DNA of 35,998 bases, from positions 1-35,998 of the forward strand of contig JAQUKG010000005.1 of the NCBI GenBank assembly GCA_028719245.1. Reading direction: 5' to 3'. This stretch comes from Candidatus Altimarinota bacterium. Its GTDB lineage: Bacteria; Patescibacteriota; Gracilibacteria; BD1-5; UBA6164. A program made the position numbers and the translations under genes. Positions 5,566 through 34,638 of this stretch are shown piece by piece; position 1 is the first letter of the stretch; the number at the start of each line of letters is the position of its first letter. The notes below the pieces were generated by a model that was given only the letters and a program-made list of their open reading frames with translations, was not told the DNA's origin and searched no databases.

Positions 5566-6225
5566 ATGAATTTTTTATATAAAATATTTATAAAAAATAT
5601 TTTTTCAAATAAAGCTTTTACGGTGGTAGAATTAACAATAATTATCACCATATTAGCAATATTGTGAACATTGGCATTTTTGTGATTTAAACAATATACT
5701 TGAAATACAAGAGATTCTAATAGACTTCAAACAATACAAAATATAGAAAGTTGATTACAATTAGCATATGCAAAAACAAAAAAATATTCTCAATGAGAAA
5801 ATAATATAACAATATTATCAGGTTGAACAATAATATGATATCAATGAGATTTTTGAGATAATAATGCAAAAATAATAAATATGAATACTGTTCCATTAGA
5901 TCCTTTAGATAACCAAAAATATACATATTATGTAGATTCAAAAAATAGAAAGTATCAAATTCTTGCTTTTATGGAAGAATATATTGGATATAACTCAATA
6001 ATACAAGAAACTTATGCAATTGATTATTCTATTAGAAAACCTAGAGTTTTTTGAAAAAATTTATGAGTATTGTTATCAATAAACAATACTCCAGTTCAAA
6101 ATTTATCGTTAACTTGAATTGATATAGCTACTACAACAACACAATATAAAGCAATAATAGACAATACCGCAAGTTGAACAATAATTTGAACTTGATGAAT
6201 ATTAGTGAATTTTATTAAAAGATAA
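5566..6225 (+). CDS. type IV pilin-like protein
   Basis: 219 residues. Class III-like prepilin leader, cleavage site Ala17/Phe18 (KAFTVVELTIII), Glu22 at +5 and one long hydrophobic helix, then RDSNRLQTIQNIESGLQLA as in the pilin at the window start. The C-terminal part has DPLDNQKYTYYVDSKNRKYQILAF, the beta-sheet signature common in pseudopilins. The two pilins are probably paralogues. The next gene begins three nt after its stop, so it is likely translated from the same message. It is predicted to sit in the membrane until assembled into a pilus. Ala at -1 is tolerated by some prepilin peptidases but is unusual. Confidence 0.9.
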
Positions 6226-7222: not shown

Positions 7223-8350
7223 TTAAACCACATTTACCATATTGAAAAAAGGAAGTAAAATAGCCATTACCATAGTTCAAACTATTGATCAAACAATTAT
7301 TATAACAATTGGTTCAATTATATTTGATAATCATTTTACAATTACATCAACTTCCTTATTAAACTTAGCTGAAATTTTTATAAGTAAACTTGGTAATTTT
7401 CAGGTTTGTTCTCATATTTTTACTATTGAAGCTAATTCAATTGGAAAATAAGGATCATCTTTTCATATTTTTAAATTTCTGATTCAAATTAATTCACTAA
7501 GTGGAATTCATTCATTTAATTCTTTAGAAATTTCATCAATTTTTCTTTCATAATAAGCATTTTCAAGACTTTTTTTACTTATTTCAAGAGCTTCATTTAT
7601 CATTATTCAATTTTGAAGTAAAGTTCATAAAGTATGAGAAAATATTGCTAGAATTTTTTTTCTTATTAACCTTCAAAAAACAGGAAATTTTAATATTATT
7701 TTATCAACATATATTTTTGTTAAATTATTCTTTTTTAAAAAAGCTAAAAATAAAATCATTAAAATAACTCAGATTATTAAATATAAATAATTTTGTTGTA
7801 AAAATTGTGAAATATTTATAACATTTTGAGTTAAACTTGGTAAATTTACTCTAGCATCGCTATACATTTTTTGAACTCTTGGTATAACAAATAACATAAA
7901 TCAAATTATCATTCAAATTGATAAAGTAGTAATAATTGCTGGATAAATTAAAGCTCAAATTACTTTTGATTTTAACTGAGCATTTTGTTCTTCTCTATCT
8001 TTTATTATTTCAAAAGAGTTTGATAATTTTCAAGTTACTTCTCACATTTTTATCATTGATAAATCAAAATTTGAAAAAGTATTCTCAAATGATGCAAAGC
8101 TTTCATACAGTTTTTTTCATTTATTTATATCTTTTGAAATGCTGTCAACTAAATATTTTATATTTTTTTCTTTTGATTGAAATTGAATTATTGATAATGA
8201 ATTAGTCAAAGGGATTCAAGAATTTATTAAATTATATAAGGAATCAAAAAAGAATATCTTTTGTTTTTGAGATATCTTAGGAGATCTACTTTTTAATAAT
8301 TTTTTAAAATCTATATTTTTGATTTCTAAAATCAAATCTTTTATAACCAT
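7223..8350 (-). CDS. GspF/PilC-family inner-membrane platform protein
   Basis: 375 residues. Two tandem T2SSF domains, each with a short cytoplasmic helical bundle: LYNLINSGIPLTNSLSII (about residues 27-44) and FSHTLGTLLQNGIMINEALE in the second half. Hydrophobic segments lie at about 128-155, 180-200 and 340-370. EPIVIIIVGSIVGTMVMAILLP at the C-terminus is the classic ending. PilC proteins form the membrane platform turned by the PilB ATPase in pilus assembly. It converges on the pyruvyl transferase with one nt between stops. It is a second PilC beside that at 12354, and the two are not close copies. No PilB or PilT gene is in the window. Confidence 0.93.
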
Positions 8351-12353: not shown

Positions 12354-13463
12354 ATGGATAATTCTTCAAATAAAAATTCAACTGATATAATAAAAAAAGA
12401 ATTTTATATATTCAAAAAAATAAGTTTAATTGATAAATTTAATTTTTATGAATATTTATCAATTATGTTAGATTGATGAGTTACAATCACTTCATCTCTT
12501 GAATCCGTTTGAAAAAAAATTAAAAATTTATATTTTAAAGAGAAAATTGGAGAACTTTTAATTTTTATTTCATCTTGAGATAGTTTAAATAAAGCTATGA
12601 AAAAATTACCAGATGTTTTTAATCAATCTGAATATTCTTTGATTGAAGCTTGAGAAAAATCTTGAACTTTAGTAAACACTTTATCATCTTTAGCTTTAGA
12701 ATTTAAAAAACTTTTTGAACTTAAACAAACAATTAAATCTTCACTAACTTATCCAACAATTATATTGATATTTTTAGTAGTTGCTGTTTTAGTTGTAATG
12801 ACTTATGTAATTCCTTCAATTATTCCATTACTTGATGAATCATGAGTTGAAAAGCCATTTGCAACTATTGCTTTAATAGCAACAAGTAATTTTATAAGTA
12901 ATAATTTATTTTCTATAATATTTTTTATAGTTTTAATTTTTGTTTTATTTTATTTTTTTAAATCTTCTGATGGTTGAAAAAAAATAATTGATAATTTATT
13001 ATTAAAACTTCCATTAATTTGAAATATTTACAAAAATTATATAATTGCCTCTAGTGCTTCAATTCTTTGAATTCTTATGAATGCTTGAATTCCAGTAGTT
13101 AAATCTTTAATACTTGTTTGAAAATCAACTAATAATGTAATTTATGAAGATTTATTTAATGATATATCTATGAAAGTTTGAAATTGAAGAAAAATGGTTG
13201 AATCTATAATAGAAGTTGATTGAATTAATGAGTATTTTCCATCTGATTTTCTACAACTTCTTTCCGTTTGAGAAAAAACAGCTTCAATTGATAATGTATG
13301 CAAAAAAATAAATGAACAATATACAAGAGAAGTAAATTATTCTTTATGAAATTTAACAAAATTAATAGAACCTTTAGCTATTTTTATAGCATGACTTTTT
13401 GTTTTATGGTTTGCATTTGCAATATTTTGAGCTATATTAAAATTGACTCAAACGGTGGGGTAA
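12354..13463 (+). CDS. pilC: PilC-type type IV pilus platform protein
   Basis: 369 residues with two T2SSF domains. The first begins FYEYLSIMLDGGVTITSSLE (about residues 30-50) and the second IIASSASILGILMNAGIPVV. Hydrophobic helices lie at about 130-155, 185-205 and 337-362; the last reads LIEPLAIFIAGLFVLWFAF, the conserved C-terminal signature. It is the polytopic platform for PilB-driven pilin polymerisation. Placed directly downstream of the PilN/PilO-like genes and upstream of four pilins, it is the core of this operon. PilB, PilT, PilM and PilD are absent from the window and must be elsewhere. Confidence 0.94.
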
Positions 13464-13485
13464 TTTAATTTTATTGTTATAAAAG

Positions 13486-14037
13486 ATGAAACATAAAACT
13501 CAAAAATGATTTACATTAGTAGAACTTTTAATATCCATGACTATATTTTTTATCTTCGTAGTTATGACTTATGTTAATTATTCTTATTATCAAAATATTT
13601 CAAAGGTCAAATTATCATTAAAACAAATTTCTCAAACAATTAATGATGCTAGAAATTTAGCAATTTCTTGATATAATAAAGATTGAATAAACCAATCAAT
13701 TTGAGTTTATTTTGATTTAGAAAATGATAAAAATAATATTTCATTATATGCGATTAATTATAATTCTTGAATTATTTTAAATAATAATTCTTTTTATAAA
13801 AAAATAAGTTTACAACCTTGAATTTGAATTGATAATATTTCTTGAAAAAACAAAATTTTAATTTATTTTTCATCAATTTATGCAAAACCAGAAATATATT
13901 ATTATGATAATTCCTGAGTAGCAAATATTTTTTCTTGAGATTATCTAGATTTTGATATTTCTTTTAAGTGAGCTTTAACTTTTCCATTAAATAGAAAATT
14001 AAAATATTTTAAAAATACAAATGTTGTAGATTATTAA
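13486..14037 (+). CDS. minor pilin, GspH/PilE-like
   Basis: 183 residues. Leader MKHKTQKG, cleavage site Gly8/Phe9 (KGFTLVELLISM), Glu13 at +5. The cleavage-site glycine is a TGA codon. The helix is followed by QTINDARNLAISGYN, the GspH/FimT-like segment where early pseudopilins carry 'DARNLA', then beta strands with SIGVYFDLENDKNNISLYA and a final FKGALTFPLNRKLKYF. It is the first of four consecutive pilin-like genes, probably the tip or priming complex of the pilus. The subunit class (GspH-like) is from the DARNLA segment and is moderately supported. Confidence 0.85.
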
Positions 14038-14051
14038 TAATTTTTTTAAAA

Positions 14052-14654
14052 ATGATAAATAATAAATGATTTTCTATAATTGAAATTCTAATTTGAATAA
14101 TGATTTTTACATTATGAATTACTTGAGTTTATGTTTTAATGGTCTCAACAATTAATTTAAATGAATACTCAAAAAATTCTATAATTGCAACAAATTTAGC
14201 TAGATGATCAATAGAAGATATTAGAAATTTAAGAGATAATAATTATAAAAATTTATATAAACGGGATAAACTTCCTTGAAACGATACTAATCTAGTATTT
14301 TCAACTTGAGTTTATTACAAAGTAGAAAATGATTACTCACCTTTTACAAGTGAAACTGTTAAATTAGAAGTTATATTAGACTTCGCTGAATGAAAAGAGT
14401 TTTTAGCTAATAAAATGAATAATTATATATTATGTTTAGATAATGAAAATAAATATACTTATGATTGTTCCTGACAAAATAAAAAAACTTATTTTTATAA
14501 ATATATGAAATTTGATGATGTTATTTATAACTCTGGATGAGTAAATAAAATTATTTCTGGTAGTTTAAAATTAACTTCAAAAGTTATTTGGTATAATAAA
14601 TGATATCATCAAATTGAATTAAAAACTATTTTAACAGATTATTTAAGACAATAA
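14052..14654 (+). CDS. minor pilin, PilV/GspI-like
   Basis: 200 residues. Very short leader MINNKG, cleavage site Gly6/Phe7 (GFSIIEILIGIMIF), Glu11 at +5, the site glycine being TGA. The helix has GIMIFTLGITGVYVLMVST, then NLARGSIEDIRNLRDNNYK: the 'A-G--E---NLRD' pattern is characteristic of PilV/GspI pseudopilins. A single cysteine pair (LCLDNENKYTYDCS) may form a disulfide in the globular head. The gene order H-I-J-K seen in type II secretion and minor pilin clusters would make this the I-like subunit. Confidence 0.85.
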
Positions 14655-14657
14655 AAT

Positions 14658-15263
14658 ATGAAAGCTGAAAATATTAAATGATTTACTCTTATAGAAATAA
14701 TAGTATCAATTGCTGTTTTGTCTATGATTATGATATCAGTTTTTACTATATTTAGTTTATCTGCTGATTTGAATAATAAAACAGATATTTCAAGAGCATT
14801 ACAAGAAAATATAAAAAATCTTGAGCAAATAATAATTGATGATATAAAAATAAATAATATTTCTTGAGTAAATAGTGATATTGTTATATCTAATTGTCAA
14901 ATTTCTTTAACTTCAAAATATAGTTCTTGAACAAAATTATGTGTGTGAACAAATAGTTATTATTTAGCTAGACAAGAAGCTTGAACATGGATAAGAATTT
15001 GAAATTATAATGAATGTGAATTATGAATAAATAGTTGTTATTTAGTAAAACATGATGAAAATTGAAATATAACTCAATTATCAAACAGTTGGCTAGAATT
15101 TAGAAAATTATATTTTTATGTTACAAATGATAAAATAAAAAAAGTTAGTATTAATTTTGAGGTTCAACCTTCAATTCATAAGTGAATTAAACCAGAATTA
15201 GTTAAAAATAATAAAATAAATTTTGAAACAACTATATCAGAAAGATTATATAATAATAATTAA
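14658..15263 (+). CDS. minor pilin, PilW/GspJ-like
   Basis: 201 residues. Leader MKAENIKG, cleavage site Gly8/Phe9 (KGFTLIEIIVSIAVLS), Glu13 at +5. The helix MIMISVFTIFSLSADLNNK is followed by NIKNLEQIIIDDIKIN, matching the GspJ/PilW pattern of a long amphipathic extension. Four cysteines sit in the globular part (SNCQI, KLCVG, NECEL and NSCYL), probably two disulfides. It starts four nt after the preceding stop, so translation is tightly linked. By position it is the J-like subunit of the tip complex. Confidence 0.82.
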
Positions 15264-17978: not shown

Positions 17979-19437
17979 CTTGTCTAAAATAAATTATTAA
18001 AAAAACTAAAATCATAAAATAAATTATTTCAAGATAAATAGCATAGATTCATAAATCAACTTTCAAAACTGAAAAACTTAAATTTCAAATAAAGTTAGCA
18101 ACTCAAATAATGAAATTAAGTAAATAATAATTAATAAATCAAATTAGAAATCATATTTTACCCCAAATAAATTGTCATAAAATACTTAAAAATCCAAAAA
18201 ACATTGTGAAAGGAATTATTCATCAAACAAGTAAGTTTGAAATTGGTGAAAGTATTGAAATTTGTCCAAAATTAAAAATCATTATTGGTAAAGTTGTAGT
18301 TAATGCTGACATAGTCAAAACAAAACTATCCTTTATAGCAAAGAAACTTGGCAGAAATCTAAAAATTTTATTCCAAAAATTTTGAAAATATAAAAGTCAT
18401 AAAACAGCTAGAAAACTTAAATGAAATGAAATATCATAATTTAAACTTAAAGGATTATATAAAATAATTAAAAAAGCCGTAAATAATAAAATAGATAAGT
18501 TGTCAGTTTTTCTTCATAAAACTAAAATATAATATCAAACCAATCACATAATTGAAGCTCTAATAACAGCAATAGAATCTCAAACTATTAGCACAAAAAA
18601 TAGGATAAACAAACTAATTAATAAACTTCTAAAAAATATAGGCAAAAATTTAAACAAAAATCATAAAAAAATAATAATAATTGTAATATTAAATCAACTA
18701 ACAGAAATTATGTGAGTTAATCAAGAATTATTAAAATTTTTAGAAATATTTTCATCTAAATCACTTTTTTCTCAAATTAAAAGTCAAAGCAAAAAATCTG
18801 CTTCATTTTTTGGATAAACTTCTTTAGTAATTTTAATAATTCCTTTTTTAAAATCTAAAACTTTATTAAATAAATAAGAAACTTTTTTATTTCAGTTAAA
18901 TTCAATTTCTGGGTAATATAAAGCAAAATAAATATTCTTTGATTGTAGAAATTTTACATAATTAAAATTTGAAGAAGTATTTTTTATTTCTTTTAGATTT
19001 CATTTTATATTTATAATTTGATTATTTTCTAAACTAAGATTTGGTTTTACATAAAGTAAGAATTGTAAATTTATATTTTTATTTTCTATAAAATTTGTTT
19101 TTAAAATATAACTATTATAATTGGAAGTTTTTTTATAAATATCAACTACATAAGCATTTATATTAACTTCTTCATCATAATAAAGTTTAACTTTAGAAAT
19201 ATTTTTTGAAATAAAATAATTATTTACTGCAGAATAATTTAATCAAATAAAAACTCCAAAAGCTAAAATAATTAAAAATAAATGATATTTTTTAAACTTA
19301 AAGTAAATAAGTCAAAAAAATATCATTGTTATAGAATAAAAAAATGTAATTAAATAAATATTAAATAAAAAGTTTCAAAATAAAATTCAAATAAAAAATC
19401 ATACCAAAAAATTAATAAATATTTTATTTTTAGACAT
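17959..19437 (-). CDS. comEC: ComEC/Rec2 DNA-uptake channel protein
   Basis: 492 residues, short for ComEC (often 700-800). An N-terminal pair of membrane helices precedes a soluble OB-like region (about residues 70-190, YDEEVNINAYVVDIYKKTS). Next come the competence domain's helices: GLTHIISVSGFNITIIIIF at about 235-255 (family signature H-x-x-A-x-S-G-x-N/H) and RASIMGLVGYYILVLGRK. It carries FGQISILSPISNLLVGGIIP, typical of the pore region. There is no C-terminal metallo-beta-lactamase domain. It conducts single-stranded DNA across the membrane in transformation. Starts five nt after the Lgt-like gene. Natural competence would fit the type IV pilus genes nearby. Confidence 0.92.
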
Positions 19438-19442
19438 AAAAA

Positions 19443-20225
19443 TTAGATTATTTCACTATTTTTAGGAGTTTTATAAATTCTATATAATCAGTAAAATCAA
19501 GATATTATTAAAAATATTGCTCAAATTTGAGTAAAACTTATTCAAAGTTCAATTTTAAAATAATCATATTTTCAGCTAAAATTATCTAAAATTAAAAGTA
19601 TTGATCAAATTAAAGCTAATCATAAATATCAAATAATTCATCTAACTGAAATAAACATAGCAAACATGTATAAAACCGAGAATAATATAAAAAATATTAT
19701 TGAATAAACTATTGGCAATGGGAAAACAGGAACTTCGTAAGGAACTGGTGAAAATGAGTTAGTGTAAAGAATTTCTATTCAAAAATTTGTTTCCTTTCAA
19801 TAAACTTGTCATCCTAGAAATGAACCAAAAAATCATATAATACAAGAAAATAAAAATGCCAAAACAGAAACATCCATATATTTTCAGCTTTTAATATTAT
19901 GTAAAATGATAGAAATAAACAAGACTAAAAAATATCAAAATATTGCTCAAATTAAAGAAAAATTATAATCACTCATTAAAAAAAATTCCAAAGGATCTTT
20001 TATAAACTTAAAATCACTCCATCTACTTATTACATAAAATAATCTAGAAAAGAAAAATACTGATAAAAAATACCATAAGATTCTATTAAAAAAGAAAGTA
20101 TTATTAATTCAAAATTTTCAAGATAGTTTTTTTAACATCCATAAAAATACAAAAAAACATATTGTTAAAGTTAAACCAAAAGTATAAATATAAAATCAAG
20201 GAAATATTTCAAAAAATGGATACAT
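19443..20225 (-). CDS. Lgt-like membrane protein with degenerate active site
   Basis: 260 residues, seven membrane helices. MYPFFEIFPGFYIYTFGLTL, FFFSRLFYVISRW, FSLIGAIFGYFLVLF, GFFGSFLGGQVYGKETNFG and FTQIGAIFLIISGFYGLYR align in order with the landmarks of prolipoprotein diacylglyceryl transferase. However, the signature G-R-x-G-N-F-x-N-x-E reads G-F-F-G-S-F-L-G-G-Q: the essential Arg, Asn and Glu are all replaced. The YG motif of helix 1 reads FG and the catalytic His region reads YNFSLIG. So it is clearly related to Lgt but may not transfer diacylglycerol. It is followed five nt later by comEC. A role in the membrane with ComEC is inference. Confidence 0.75.
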
Positions 20226-20278: not shown

Positions 20279-20310
20279 AAAAGTCAAGAATTTAATAATT
20301 CTTGACTTTT
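20279..20310. terminator. terminator between rny and lgt-like unit
   Basis: Arms AAAAGTCAAGAATT (20279-20292) and AATTCTTGACTTTT (20297-20310), loop TAAT. The stem is symmetrical with A and T ends. It lies just beyond the rny stop (20314-20316) and ends that message on the minus strand. Confidence 0.88.
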
Positions 20311-20313
20311 AGA

Positions 20314-21864
20314 TTATTTTGCATATTCAATTACTCTCATTTCTCTAATCAAATTCACCTTTACTTCTCAAGGATAATTCAATTTTGCCTCTATGTCTAA
20401 AGCTATATTTCTTGCCATTTCATGAGCTTCAAAATCTCAAATAGTATCTGCATCAACAAAAACTCTTACTTCTCTTCAAGCACTTATTGCATAAGCCTTT
20501 GTCACTCAAGAGAAACTTCAAACTAATGCTTCCATTTCTTTAACTCTTTTTACATATTGTTCAATAGATTCTCTTCTAGCTCCAGGTCTAACTGAACTAA
20601 TTGCATCAGCCATTTGAACTATTGCTGCATAAATACTTAATCAAGTTGGTTCTCAGTGATGATTTTCAATCATATCAATTATATTTTCTCATAAACCATA
20701 TTTTCTTCATATTTTGGCTCAAATTTCTGGATGAGTTCATTCTATATCATGATCAAGTGCTTTTCAAATATCATGAAGTAATCAACCTTTTTTTGCTAAC
20801 ATTGGGTCTAAATTTAAATCGTTAGCGATACTTTCTGCTATATAAGCTACTTCAGTTGAATGTTTTAAAATATTTTGTCAATAACTTGTTCTAAATCTTA
20901 ATTTTCAAATTAATGGAATAATTTCCTCTGGAACTCAAGTAATATTTAATTCGTCAAGTGTTTTTTTACCAATATCTTTTAATAAAATATCAGCTTCATT
21001 TGTAGTCATTTCAACTATTTCTTCAATTCTTGCTGGTTGAATTCTACCATCTTCAAGTAATTTTTCTAAAGATTTTTTAGCAATATATCTTCTAAATAAA
21101 TCAAAAGCTGAAATGAAAACAGTATCTGGAGTGTCATCTATTATTAATGCTACTCAAGTTGCTCTTTCAAATGCAACTATATTTCTTCATTCTTTTCAAA
21201 TAAGTTTTCATTTTAAATCATCATTTGGAAGAGGAATTAAAGTTGTTGTAACTTCACTTGTTACATCTCAAGCATATTGTTGAATTGATTTTATAATTAT
21301 TTCTCTTGCTACTTCATTTTTTCTTTCTTCAATTCATTTTTTGTATTTTTCTATTTGAGTAACAGAATCTTTTTCGTATTTTTCAGCAATTTGTTTTAAT
21401 AATAGATCTCTAGCTTCTTCAATTGATAATTTAGACATTTGAGAAAGTTTATTATCAAGTTCTTCTTGTTTGTGTTTTAAGTTTTCTTGTTCTTGCTTTA
21501 ACTTTTCTTCTCTATCTAAAATAGATTCTTGTTTTTTTGAAATTTCATCTAATTTTGTTTCTAGTTTTTCTTCTTTTTCAAGTAATCTTTCTTCTAATTT
21601 TTCAGCTTTTTTAAGATTATCATTAGCTTCTTGCCTAGCTTTTTCAACAATTACATTAGCTTCTTGTTTTGATTTATTTAACAATAAATCACTTTCTTCT
21701 TTTGCTTTTTTTAAAATTTCTTCTTTTGCTTTTTCAGCTTCATTTAAAAGTTTTTCTCTGTTAGATTTAGCTTTAATTACACCTTTATCTTCTAAAACTT
21801 TGTTTACTATATAATACCAAGTTATTCATAAAATAACTCATATTAATAAATATATTATTATCAT
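20314..21864 (-). CDS. rny: ribonuclease Y
   Basis: 516 residues, the standard length. An N-terminal membrane anchor (residues about 2-20) is followed by a long coiled coil (about 30-170) of Lys, Glu and Leu. The KH domain has GKLIGKEGRN at about 213-222, and the HD domain has HDIGKALDHD at about 363-372, preceded by [11 protein letters not shown]. The C-terminus is [14 protein letters not shown] and ends VIEYAK. It is a membrane-anchored endoribonuclease starting mRNA decay. The start at 21864 puts the anchor at the N-terminus. TGA glycines fall in both the KH loop and the HD motif. The upstream 339 nt hold no gene. Confidence 0.96.
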
Positions 21865-22203: not shown

Positions 22204-22279
22204 GCCAGTATAGCTCAGTTGGTAGAGCATTCGCCTTGTAAGCGAACGGTCATCGGTTCAATTCCGATTACTGGCTCCA
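22204..22279 (+). tRNA. trnT: tRNA-Thr (anticodon TGT)
   Basis: 76 nt with encoded CCA. Acceptor stem GCCAGTA pairs with TACTGGC, D-arm with TAGCTCAGTTGGTAGAGC, anticodon stem TTCGC/GCGAA with TGT in the loop, T-arm GGTTCAATTCC. It reads ACA and, by wobble, other ACN codons. Confidence 0.97.
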
Positions 22280-22281
22280 TT

Positions 22282-22344
22282 AAAGCTTAAAGTTAAGAGA
22301 ATAAAGAATTAAATTCATACTTTGTGCTTTTAGCTTTAAGCTTT
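22282..22344. repeat. inverted repeat between tRNA-Thr and tRNA-Tyr
   Basis: AAAGCTTAAAG (22282-22292) and CTTTAAGCTTT (22334-22344) are perfect inverted copies separated by about 40 nt. The right arm is followed by T-rich sequence. It could be a partial terminator or a processing signal. Confidence 0.55.
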
Positions 22345-22355
22345 TTATATTTTTT

Positions 22356-22440
22356 GGGTCGATACCAGAGCGGTCAAATGGGGTGGACTGTAAATCCACT
22401 GGCTATGCCTTCGATAGTTCGAATCTATCTCGGCCCACCA
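22356..22440 (+). tRNA. trnY: tRNA-Tyr (anticodon GTA)
   Basis: 85 nt with encoded CCA and a long variable arm, as expected of a class II tRNA. Acceptor stem GGGTCGA/TCGGCCC (one G-T pair), anticodon loop with GTA in ACTGTAAAT, T-loop TTCGAAT. Confidence 0.96.
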
Positions 22441-22453
22441 TTTTAAAGCATGT

Positions 22454-22538
22454 GCCGAAATGATGAAATTGGTAGACATGCTGGCCTTAGAAGCCAGTGC
22501 TTCACCGCATGAGAGTTCGAGTCTCTCTTTCGGCACCA
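22454..22538 (+). tRNA. trnL: tRNA-Leu (anticodon TAG)
   Basis: 85 nt with encoded CCA and a long variable arm. Acceptor GCCGAAA/TTTCGGC, anticodon stem CTGGC/GCCAG around CTTAGAA, so positions 34-36 are TAG. It reads CTA and possibly other CTN codons. Confidence 0.96.
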
Positions 22539-33507: not shown

Positions 33508-34638
33508 ATGAAAATATGTAAAAAAGCTTTTACATTAATAGAAATGATCCTTGCAATTTTAATATTTACAATTGTTATAATTTGATGATTTCAAGCTTTA
33601 TCAGCTGTAGGTTTATGAAAAGTTAAACTTATTGAAGAAACAAATATTACAAAAGATGCATATTATTTTAGTCAAAAATTATTTGAAGAAATAAAATCTG
33701 GTTGAACTATTGATTTTGAAGAATATTTTAATAGAAAAGTAATTTGAAATACAACTTGAAATTGACATTATGATATAAATAGTTGATTTTGAAATTTTTG
33801 AAGTTGATGAACCGTTTGAAATTCAACTTATTGAGATTTTTTTTATTATTGTAGAAGCTGAAGTTGAATTACTACTGAAAATATGTGAACTTGATGATGT
33901 TATAATAATGACTTCAATAATTACTGAGTTTCTGTGAATTTAAAACCTCAAAGATATTGAGAATATGCTTTTCAATTTATTGATTATAACTCAAATATGA
34001 ATTGAGACTGATGATATTATTGAGATGAAAATTTAGACTGAAATATTAGATGAGATGATGATGATGAAAATATCTGAGAATGACCAGAAGCTTTTACTTG
34101 ATGAACAGATATAAAAGAAATTTATTTGATTTCATGAGATAAAAAGAAAAGAACTATTTTTAGATGGAATTGGATACAAGATCCAGTAAATCCAAATATT
34201 TGTGATGGGAGTTTATCAAATTTTTGAACTTGATGTTTAGGAACTATAGAATTTTTAAAACTTGAATGAAAAGATCGGTGAATTAATCATAATTCCTGAG
34301 CATTTTCAACTTGAAGTTATGATTGAATAATTGATACTTGGATAGTTGATAAAAATTTTACTGGATGAGTTGAAATAATAGCTTGAAGTGATAATAATAA
34401 TTATTGGCAATCTCTTTTTCCTGACAGTATAAGTGTTGCTGATTTTAAAGTTTTTATTTATCCAAATTTTAATCAAGATTATGCTTGGAAAAAAAGTTCA
34501 TCTAATAATGTGAATCCCTATGTAAGAATTCAATTAACATTAAAACCAAGTTGGAAAAAAAGATCAGCAATGAGAGGAATAGTTCCTGAAATTAAAATAT
34601 CAACAACTATTAATTTAACCGATTATTTTAGTAAATAA
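33508..34638 (+). CDS. large minor pilin with EF-hand-like loops
   Basis: 376 residues. Leader MKICKKA, cleavage site Ala7/Phe8 (KAFTLIEMILAILIF), Glu12 at +5. The head is very rich in Gly, Asn, Asp, Tyr and Trp. Residues 163-174 (NMNGDGGYYGDE) and 173-184 (DENLDGNIRGDD) each fit D/N-x-N-x-D-G-x-[I/Y]-x-x-x-[D/E], the calcium loop of EF-hand and dockerin proteins; they overlap by two residues. Both turn glycines are TGA. Cysteines at YYCRSG, GGCYNN, ICDGS and TGCLG probably form disulfides. It may be a calcium-regulated tip or adhesin subunit; that is inference from loops only. Confidence 0.83.

Follow-up and report, generated by a model that had tools for sequence, protein, structure and literature searches.

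LgtX, a catalytically stripped paralogue of the lipoprotein-modifying transferase Lgt in Gracilibacteria

The lgtX locus and its gene neighborhoods

The stretch of DNA analyzed here (henceforth the window: 35,998 nucleotides of contig JAQUKG010000005.1 of a Candidatus Altimarinota bacterium, placed by GTDB in the order BD1-5 of the class Gracilibacteria) encodes on its minus strand a 260-residue homologue of prolipoprotein diacylglyceryl transferase (Lgt), which we term LgtX (Table 1). The lgtX frame stays open only if TGA specifies an amino acid, and its 19 in-frame TGA codons rule out the standard code for this gene. Genetic code table 25, in which TGA specifies glycine, is defined for Candidatus Gracilibacteria. 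In a 55-row alignment of orthologs, the columns of G93, G97, G139 and G143, all encoded by TGA, are invariably glycine, and those of G131, G199, G202 and G218, likewise TGA codons, are at least 90% conserved; this supports the reading of TGA as glycine in lgtX.

Table 1. Features of the lgtX locus (positions are those of the window; residues lost or kept are numbered as in Escherichia coli Lgt)
Feature	Position	Strand	Remarks
lgtX, catalytically stripped Lgt paralogue	19443..20225	-	PF01790, AF2 model, 55-row ortholog alignment
comEC, 492 aa	17959..19437	-	starts 5 nt after the lgtX stop (ATG at 19437)
rny (RNase Y), upstream neighbor of lgtX	20314..21864	-	
Terminator-like hairpin between rny and lgtX	20279..20310	-	14 pairs, 3 G-C, then T run
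Signature segment, LgtX residues 131-143	19797..19835	-	GFFGSFLGGQVYG replacing GRLGNFINGELWG; R143, N146, N149, E151 lost
LgtX residues 86-94	19944..19970	-	DYNFSLIGA replacing DGGMSFHGG; H103 lost, S101 and G104 kept
TM6 segment, LgtX residues 206-218	19572..19610	-	Y235, R239, R246 lost; E243 kept as D214

The gene is flanked by rny and comEC, the latter directly downstream at the short spacing that an earlier note, made from the letters of this DNA alone, had given. The ComEC encoded in the window has the DUF4131 and Competence domains of Pfam only and no metallo-beta-lactamase domain, a composition described as usual in the CPR (PMC6744442). On the other side, the hairpin between rny and lgtX is a single site seen on both strands, where 0.7 are expected from shuffled sequences, and none of 200 shuffles was as stable (z -4.75). 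The close spacing of lgtX and comEC, together with this terminator-like hairpin upstream, suggests that the two genes probably form a unit of their own in the window and are made together. A crude scan of rny–lgtX gaps of 20–400 nt, which had no chance control, returned a similar hairpin in 12 of 22.

As raw counts across the order, comEC follows lgtX in 52 of the 54 loci with room for it (both exceptions belong to the family f3) and 48 of the 54 have RNase Y upstream. In 39 of the 52 loci, no more than 15 nt separate the lgtX stop from the first possible, and thus putative, start codon of comEC; 503–888 nt separate RNase Y from LgtX in 23 of the 48. The one gap that was read, at locus L009, holds a gene resembling that for EF-P by eye. 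Two sets of observations concern the wider contig of the window: three tRNA genes (Thr, Tyr, Leu; plus strand, 22204-22538) lie between the RNase Y gene and the next one; and the contig appears by eye to be rich in type IV pilus-type genes, with prepilin-like N-termini and two PilC/GspF-like proteins at 5566-6225, 7223-8350, 12354-15263 and 33508-34638.

The linkage to comEC is not found wherever lgtX occurs. In all 15 genomes studied outside the families f1 and f2 (two of f3, three of f13 and ten of other families), comEC lies elsewhere and LgtX is still present. Other gene orders prevail there: In f13, the RNase Y–LgtX order recurs in each of the 16 loci read (three, then 13 further ones), and a protein of about 519 residues follows LgtX in the three first loci and in 12 of the 13 further ones (L231 being the exception). 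This protein (L146:3320-4876 and its homologues) has no Pfam match and no homologue in the window. Among 33 loci from across the class, a protein of 349–500 residues, c0, is encoded upstream of LgtX in 18, and in 15 of the 33 it is preceded by a gene that resembles CTP synthase by eye, yielding the order CTP synthase–c0–LgtX. Neither c0 nor c11, another recurrent neighbor, found a match in Pfam; by eye the start of c0 (L139:3278-4720) resembles the N-termini of PilC/GspF. Thus, the pairing with comEC, in which the earlier note saw a possible hint at DNA uptake or membrane handling, is conserved in f1 and f2, but a general role in DNA uptake is unsupported because the link is absent from all 15 genomes studied elsewhere; across the class, it is not for the sake of ComEC that LgtX has been retained.

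An Lgt fold without the catalytic set

LgtX matches the Pfam family LGT (PF01790) over its length with 51.9 bits (E 8.4e-14; cut-off 24.9), and falls far below the NCBIfam equivalog cut-offs (TIGR00544, 32.5 bits vs 118.9). An AlphaFold2 model, for which the window and locus sequences served as input, has a mean pLDDT of 88.8 and a pTM of 0.86. The solved structure that it matches best is that of E. coli Lgt, 5azb, with a Foldseek E of 7.5e-8, Z 17.7 over 238 aligned residues and an rmsd of 3.5; the next row of the PDB comparison reaches Z 5.6 and all later ones stay below Z 6. The modeled LgtX has the same three-dimensional fold as 5azb, and both the profile search and the structural prediction uphold the earlier note's reading that the fold landmarks of Lgt are in order.

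What this fold has lost is its catalytic set. The signature motif reads GFFGSFLGGQVYG, just as the note had it, and in the alignment with E. coli Lgt the tyrosine of helix 1 and the histidine of the loop, also suspected of having been replaced, correspond to phenylalanine (Y26 to F16) and isoleucine (H103 to I92). Further replacements are R143 to F132, N146 to S135, N149 to G138, E151 to Q140, Y235 to I206, R239 to L210 and, depending on the alignment, R246 to S217 or G218, with the acid of E243 retained as D214. The LgtX of the window thus has neither Y26 nor R239, nor a histidine, tyrosine, tryptophan or phenylalanine at position 103. A shifted alignment is excluded by the fold match and the kept anchor residues S101, G104, G154 and P197, which leave it no room.

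The relatives have lost the same pocket residues. None of the eight residues Y26, H103, R143, N146, E151, Y235, R239 and R246 is retained in any of the 55 full-length LgtX rows of the order in the larger alignment (L048, with a split frame, being left out), while they are retained in 37 of 37 chosen canonical rows (R246 in 36 of the 37); the latter comprise 31 rows of the order, E. coli and five of seven canonical-like places of the class, with L002, L153 and L163 (the last two keep R143 and not N146) left out, which would break the 37 of 37. N149 is likewise kept in none of 56 order LgtX, and 55 of the 56 have an acid (E or D) at position 243; position 103 is variously F, I, M, A, V, Y or another residue. 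Conversely, Y26, H103, R143, N146, N149, E151, Y235, R239, E243 and R246 are present without exception in the order's canonical Lgts, of which 31 were read out of 54 canonical-type matches and were not picked by motif. The enzyme signature GRxGNFxNGE (carrying R143, N146 and E151) is absent from all 55 order orthologs, so that no relative in the order has an intact motif at this locus. Over all 101 LgtX read, 88 keep none of Y26, H103, R143, N146 and R239, 11 keep one, and one each keeps two and three. The loss is therefore common to the orthologs, as would be expected of a pseudoenzyme.

The weight of these losses can be judged from mutagenesis of E. coli Lgt, in which R143A/E/K, Y26A/F/Q, E151A/Q, H103A/N/Q/R/Y, Y235F/L/S and all tested changes of R239 and R246 fail complementation (PMC4728403); Y26F, E151Q and Y235F, each carried by LgtX, are among these failing changes. 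However, E151A and E243A are tolerated in another E. coli strain and complement in one assay, and position 103 is Y, W or F in the Lgt of some species, so that F or Y there would, on its own, be tolerated in other Lgts (PMC13251419). Hence, the argument for loss of catalysis rests mainly on Y26, R143, N146 and R239. Judged by its residues, LgtX does not belong to the known diacylglyceryl transferases; in the genome of the window, an intact Lgt does that job.

Conservation, origin and coexistence with canonical Lgt

Among the order's 60 genomes, that of the window included, 56 carry an LgtX ortholog, as do all 44 of good quality. The median dN/dS is 0.08 for LgtX (35 pairs at 70% identity or above, of which 28 gave a value and seven none) and 0.098 for canonical Lgt (11 pairs), values that are rough because dS is high. 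LgtX is thus under purifying selection, and this value, along with its presence in 56 of 60 genomes, excludes a pseudogene. Its mean identity is below that of canonical Lgt (0.43 vs 0.50), and it is the less conserved of the two in 348 of the 406 pairs of genomes compared.

The genome of the window has three Lgt homologues: LgtX on contig C5, a canonical Lgt on C52 and a third on C27. The canonical copy (141 bits) displays GRIGNYLNKE and GGMSFHGG, and LspA is encoded on the same contig; thus, a second, intact Lgt, for which the earlier note had advised looking, is at hand, and this intact Lgt and LspA exclude LgtX as the sole Lgt of the genome. By eye, the canonical gene adjoins one for a protein with an LSGC lipobox-like start. 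The third homologue (L002:1477-2214; PF01790, 63 bits) keeps R143 (in VGRIGAF) without Y26, H103, N146 or R239; close to it are the gene for a radical SAM protein that carries an HMPTM zinc ribbon and one that by eye is phosphopantetheinyl-transferase-like. In the order as a whole, 54 of 60 genomes have a canonical-type match and 52 have both this and LgtX. No match to canonical Lgt was obtained in the six others, of which one (G019) is 92% complete; G019, G028, G053 and G057 have LgtX without a canonical match, three of these four genomes being incomplete. Among 40 genomes from across the class, an Lgt match was found in all 40 and LspA in 39.

A class-wide search returned matches in 163 of 192 genomes, a count that mixes LgtX and canonical Lgt because the profiles used, A1 and A2, also match the latter. 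Out of 40 class places read, which were chosen over families and include second matches, 33 score as LgtX and seven are canonical-like. In a 71-row tree that took 14 of the 56 order rows, the LgtX of order and class form one clade (95/87), whose sister, on a branch with 98/92, is a trio of “GRIGCFLNGCC”-like homologues of other Patescibacteria, five homologues in all having been read from outside the class. An absence of LgtX from part of f13 was considered and is excluded: a closer profile (E at most 4.9e-31) identifies the frame that follows RNase Y as LgtX in 13 of 13 further f13 genomes, ten without and three with a weak earlier match.

The lineages of the class differ in what they retain. 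In 30 class LgtX rows outside f13, H196, Q199 and Y201 are kept in 26–29, R246 in 24, Y235 in 17, R239 in eight, Y26 in five, N146 in two, R143 in one, and H103 and E151 in none, with L147 (GRLGNFFDG, on a long branch), which may not belong, counted among the 30. The order of the window and f13, which share the reading of TGA as glycine, have lost the HPxQxY motif as well. The other lineages of the class keep HPxQxY and mostly R246, whereas the order of the window and f13 are without HPxQxY; hence, the comparison of these sequences points to a catalytic loss that was probably stepwise.

A few further Lgt homologues were noted in passing. L147 (2468-3256) is a possible intermediate, with an LgtX-like score (65 vs 58 bits) and with R143 and N146 kept. 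Two proteins of the family f23 (L153:2480-3232 and L163:2477-3241) are of another paralogue type, reading GRIGDYLIGSH and GRIGCYLIGDH, with R143 kept and N146 and N149 changed. A search of plasmids gave 10 records; the five matches listed are all annotated lgt, at 22–25% identity, and the two plasmid copies that were read both carry the canonical signature. A phage search gave two records without annotation. The 13.7-kb record MT836033.1, named “Bacteriophage sp.”, has an Lgt-like stretch at 979-1503, and may be a mislabeled bacterial contig.

Possible functions and known relatives

The earlier note saw in the loss of the signature either a new chemistry or a non-enzymatic role in the membrane. 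The lost residues are those that in Lgt bind the phosphatidylglycerol headgroup and catalyze the transfer. In the LgtX of the order, the old active site has changed from Y26 to F, R143 to F or Y, E151 to Q and E202 to Y, with Y235 mostly F and R239 mostly an aliphatic residue or F; a cavity of this composition looks as if it could hold hydrophobic groups and no longer a phosphate headgroup. Since these changes run toward the hydrophobic, we prefer a non-catalytic role in binding a lipid or peptide. We propose, with a little better than even confidence, that LgtX is an old Lgt paralogue that kept the fold, lost catalysis, and serves in the cell envelope as a non-catalytic scaffold or holding factor. 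The old lipid cavity, stripped of its charges, would then act as a binding groove, whose ligand might be a lipid chain or a hydrophobic stretch of some other protein, either membrane-bound or exported. A broader formulation, which we offer tentatively and at less than even confidence, is that LgtX is a class-wide membrane module in which the lipid cavity of Lgt has been reused for a function so far undescribed, which might be to bind or move a neutral lipid, to hold exported proteins by their hydrophobic segments, or to carry out a new transfer reaction; such a module would be kept across Gracilibacteria, with ComEC as its neighbor in one branch and RNase Y in a broader one.

The polar residues bear on the choice between a binding role and an enzyme. 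At a threshold of 90%, canonical Lgt has 17 conserved polar positions and the LgtX of the order 11; at 95%, the numbers are 14 and five, and at 85%, 21 vs 18. The 30 class rows and f13 each have nine at 85%. The ionizable residues conserved in at least 90% number eight in canonical Lgt (R73, H103, D129, R143, E151, R239, E243 and R246) and three in the LgtX of the order, of which R73 and D129 are shared with canonical Lgt and D221 is new. In E. coli, the R73A mutant grew without forming colonies, and the D129A mutant retained activity (PMC13251419). An enzyme that retains the cavity of Lgt and uses another donor or acceptor, with catalytic residues at other positions, is an unlikely but serious reading. 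Its candidate residues would be Q140, Y142, Y174, D221, Q233 and R61 in the order (the first five are among the conserved polar set particular to the order's LgtX), and R73, Y153, H196, Q199, Y201 and mostly R246 in other orders. That each lineage has conserved polar residues where canonical Lgt has none speaks for it, as does the suggestion of the authors of PMC13251419 that a separate Lgt subgroup without R143 and R239 may have a different acyl substrate or mechanism. However, these sets differ between lineages: over all 101 LgtX, D129 alone is conserved in at least 90%, with R73, S101 and one Thr reaching at least 80%. Moreover, the order of the window and f13 lack both HPxQxY and RGD, which other orders have kept, and in E. 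coli Lgt H196A/Q and Y201F are active, Q264A is without effect, and P197A is thought to be structural (PMC4728403). Because no new polar set is common to all lineages, a non-enzymatic role fits somewhat better than a new chemistry.

It is improbable that LgtX regulates canonical Lgt or works as its partner, as a pseudoenzyme controlling its active paralogue would: the two share a fold and are both matched in most genomes of the order, but in the genome of the window their genes are unlinked, canonical lgt residing with lspA on a contig other than that of lgtX, and four genomes (three of them incomplete) have LgtX and no canonical match. Still less probable is a role of LgtX as subunit or helper in DNA uptake through the ComEC channel; the same-strand adjacency and tight spacing in the order, the upstream hairpin in the window, and the pair remaining intact in L009, where another gene separates RNase Y and LgtX, favor such a partnership, yet outside f1 and f2 comEC is elsewhere in every genome studied and LgtX sits in the f13 or the CTP synthase–c0 gene order. 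That lgtX is decaying or misread, through a pseudogene, a sequencing error, a wrong genetic code or a shifted alignment, could be argued from its stops under the standard code and its low Pfam score relative to canonical Lgt, but is already refuted by the TGA codons at conserved glycines, the 55 full-length rows that align, the low dN/dS, the matching fold and the identical losses across many genomes.

For the non-catalytic scaffold or holding factor, the link to ComEC would be secondary, as the other lineages tested keep LgtX without comEC alongside; in the lineage of the window, LgtX is probably made with ComEC and may help it. Lgt is under study as a target for antibiotics, and homologues of it are annotated as active transferases. 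A label given to LgtX from the Pfam match alone would mislead, as by the known rules no Lgt reaction should be possible. A strongly selected paralogue devoid of the catalytic set also makes other uses of the Lgt scaffold testable.

Titles and abstract starts in the open-licence literature, on Lgt in Gracilibacteria or in the candidate phyla radiation and on Lgt paralogues or pseudoenzymes, yielded nothing on this gene. Lgt homologues without R143 and R239 are already known: a subgroup described in 2026 (PMC13251419) is from Deinococci, Acidimicrobiales, Anaerolineales, Acidobacteriales and Myxococcales, groups other than Patescibacteria, and the words CPR and Patescibacteria do not occur in the main text of that paper. 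LgtX resembles this subgroup in lacking both arginines and differs from it in its hosts, the comparison being with its published description; a Deinococcus plasmid copy of Lgt keeps GRLGN.

Set against E. coli Lgt (5azb/5azc), the modeled LgtX has the same fold over its full length, and the LgtX of the order keep R73, S101, G104, G154 and P197, and in most cases D129, while Y26, H103, R143, N146, N149, E151, Y235, R239 and R246 are all replaced. The “G(R/K)IGCFL(N/H)GCC” homologues of other Patescibacteria (L190-L192), the sister of LgtX in the tree, differ from it, by eye, in having R (L190, L192) or K (L191) at position 143, N149 in two of the three, and HPxQxYE and an arginine at the position of R239 in place. 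Finally, the second Lgt of Mycobacterium smegmatis, MSMEG_5408, for which only Y26H and N146C are named (as cited in PMC13251419), parallels LgtX as a second copy beside the main one and is presumably less active; LgtX, by comparison, has lost the whole catalytic set.
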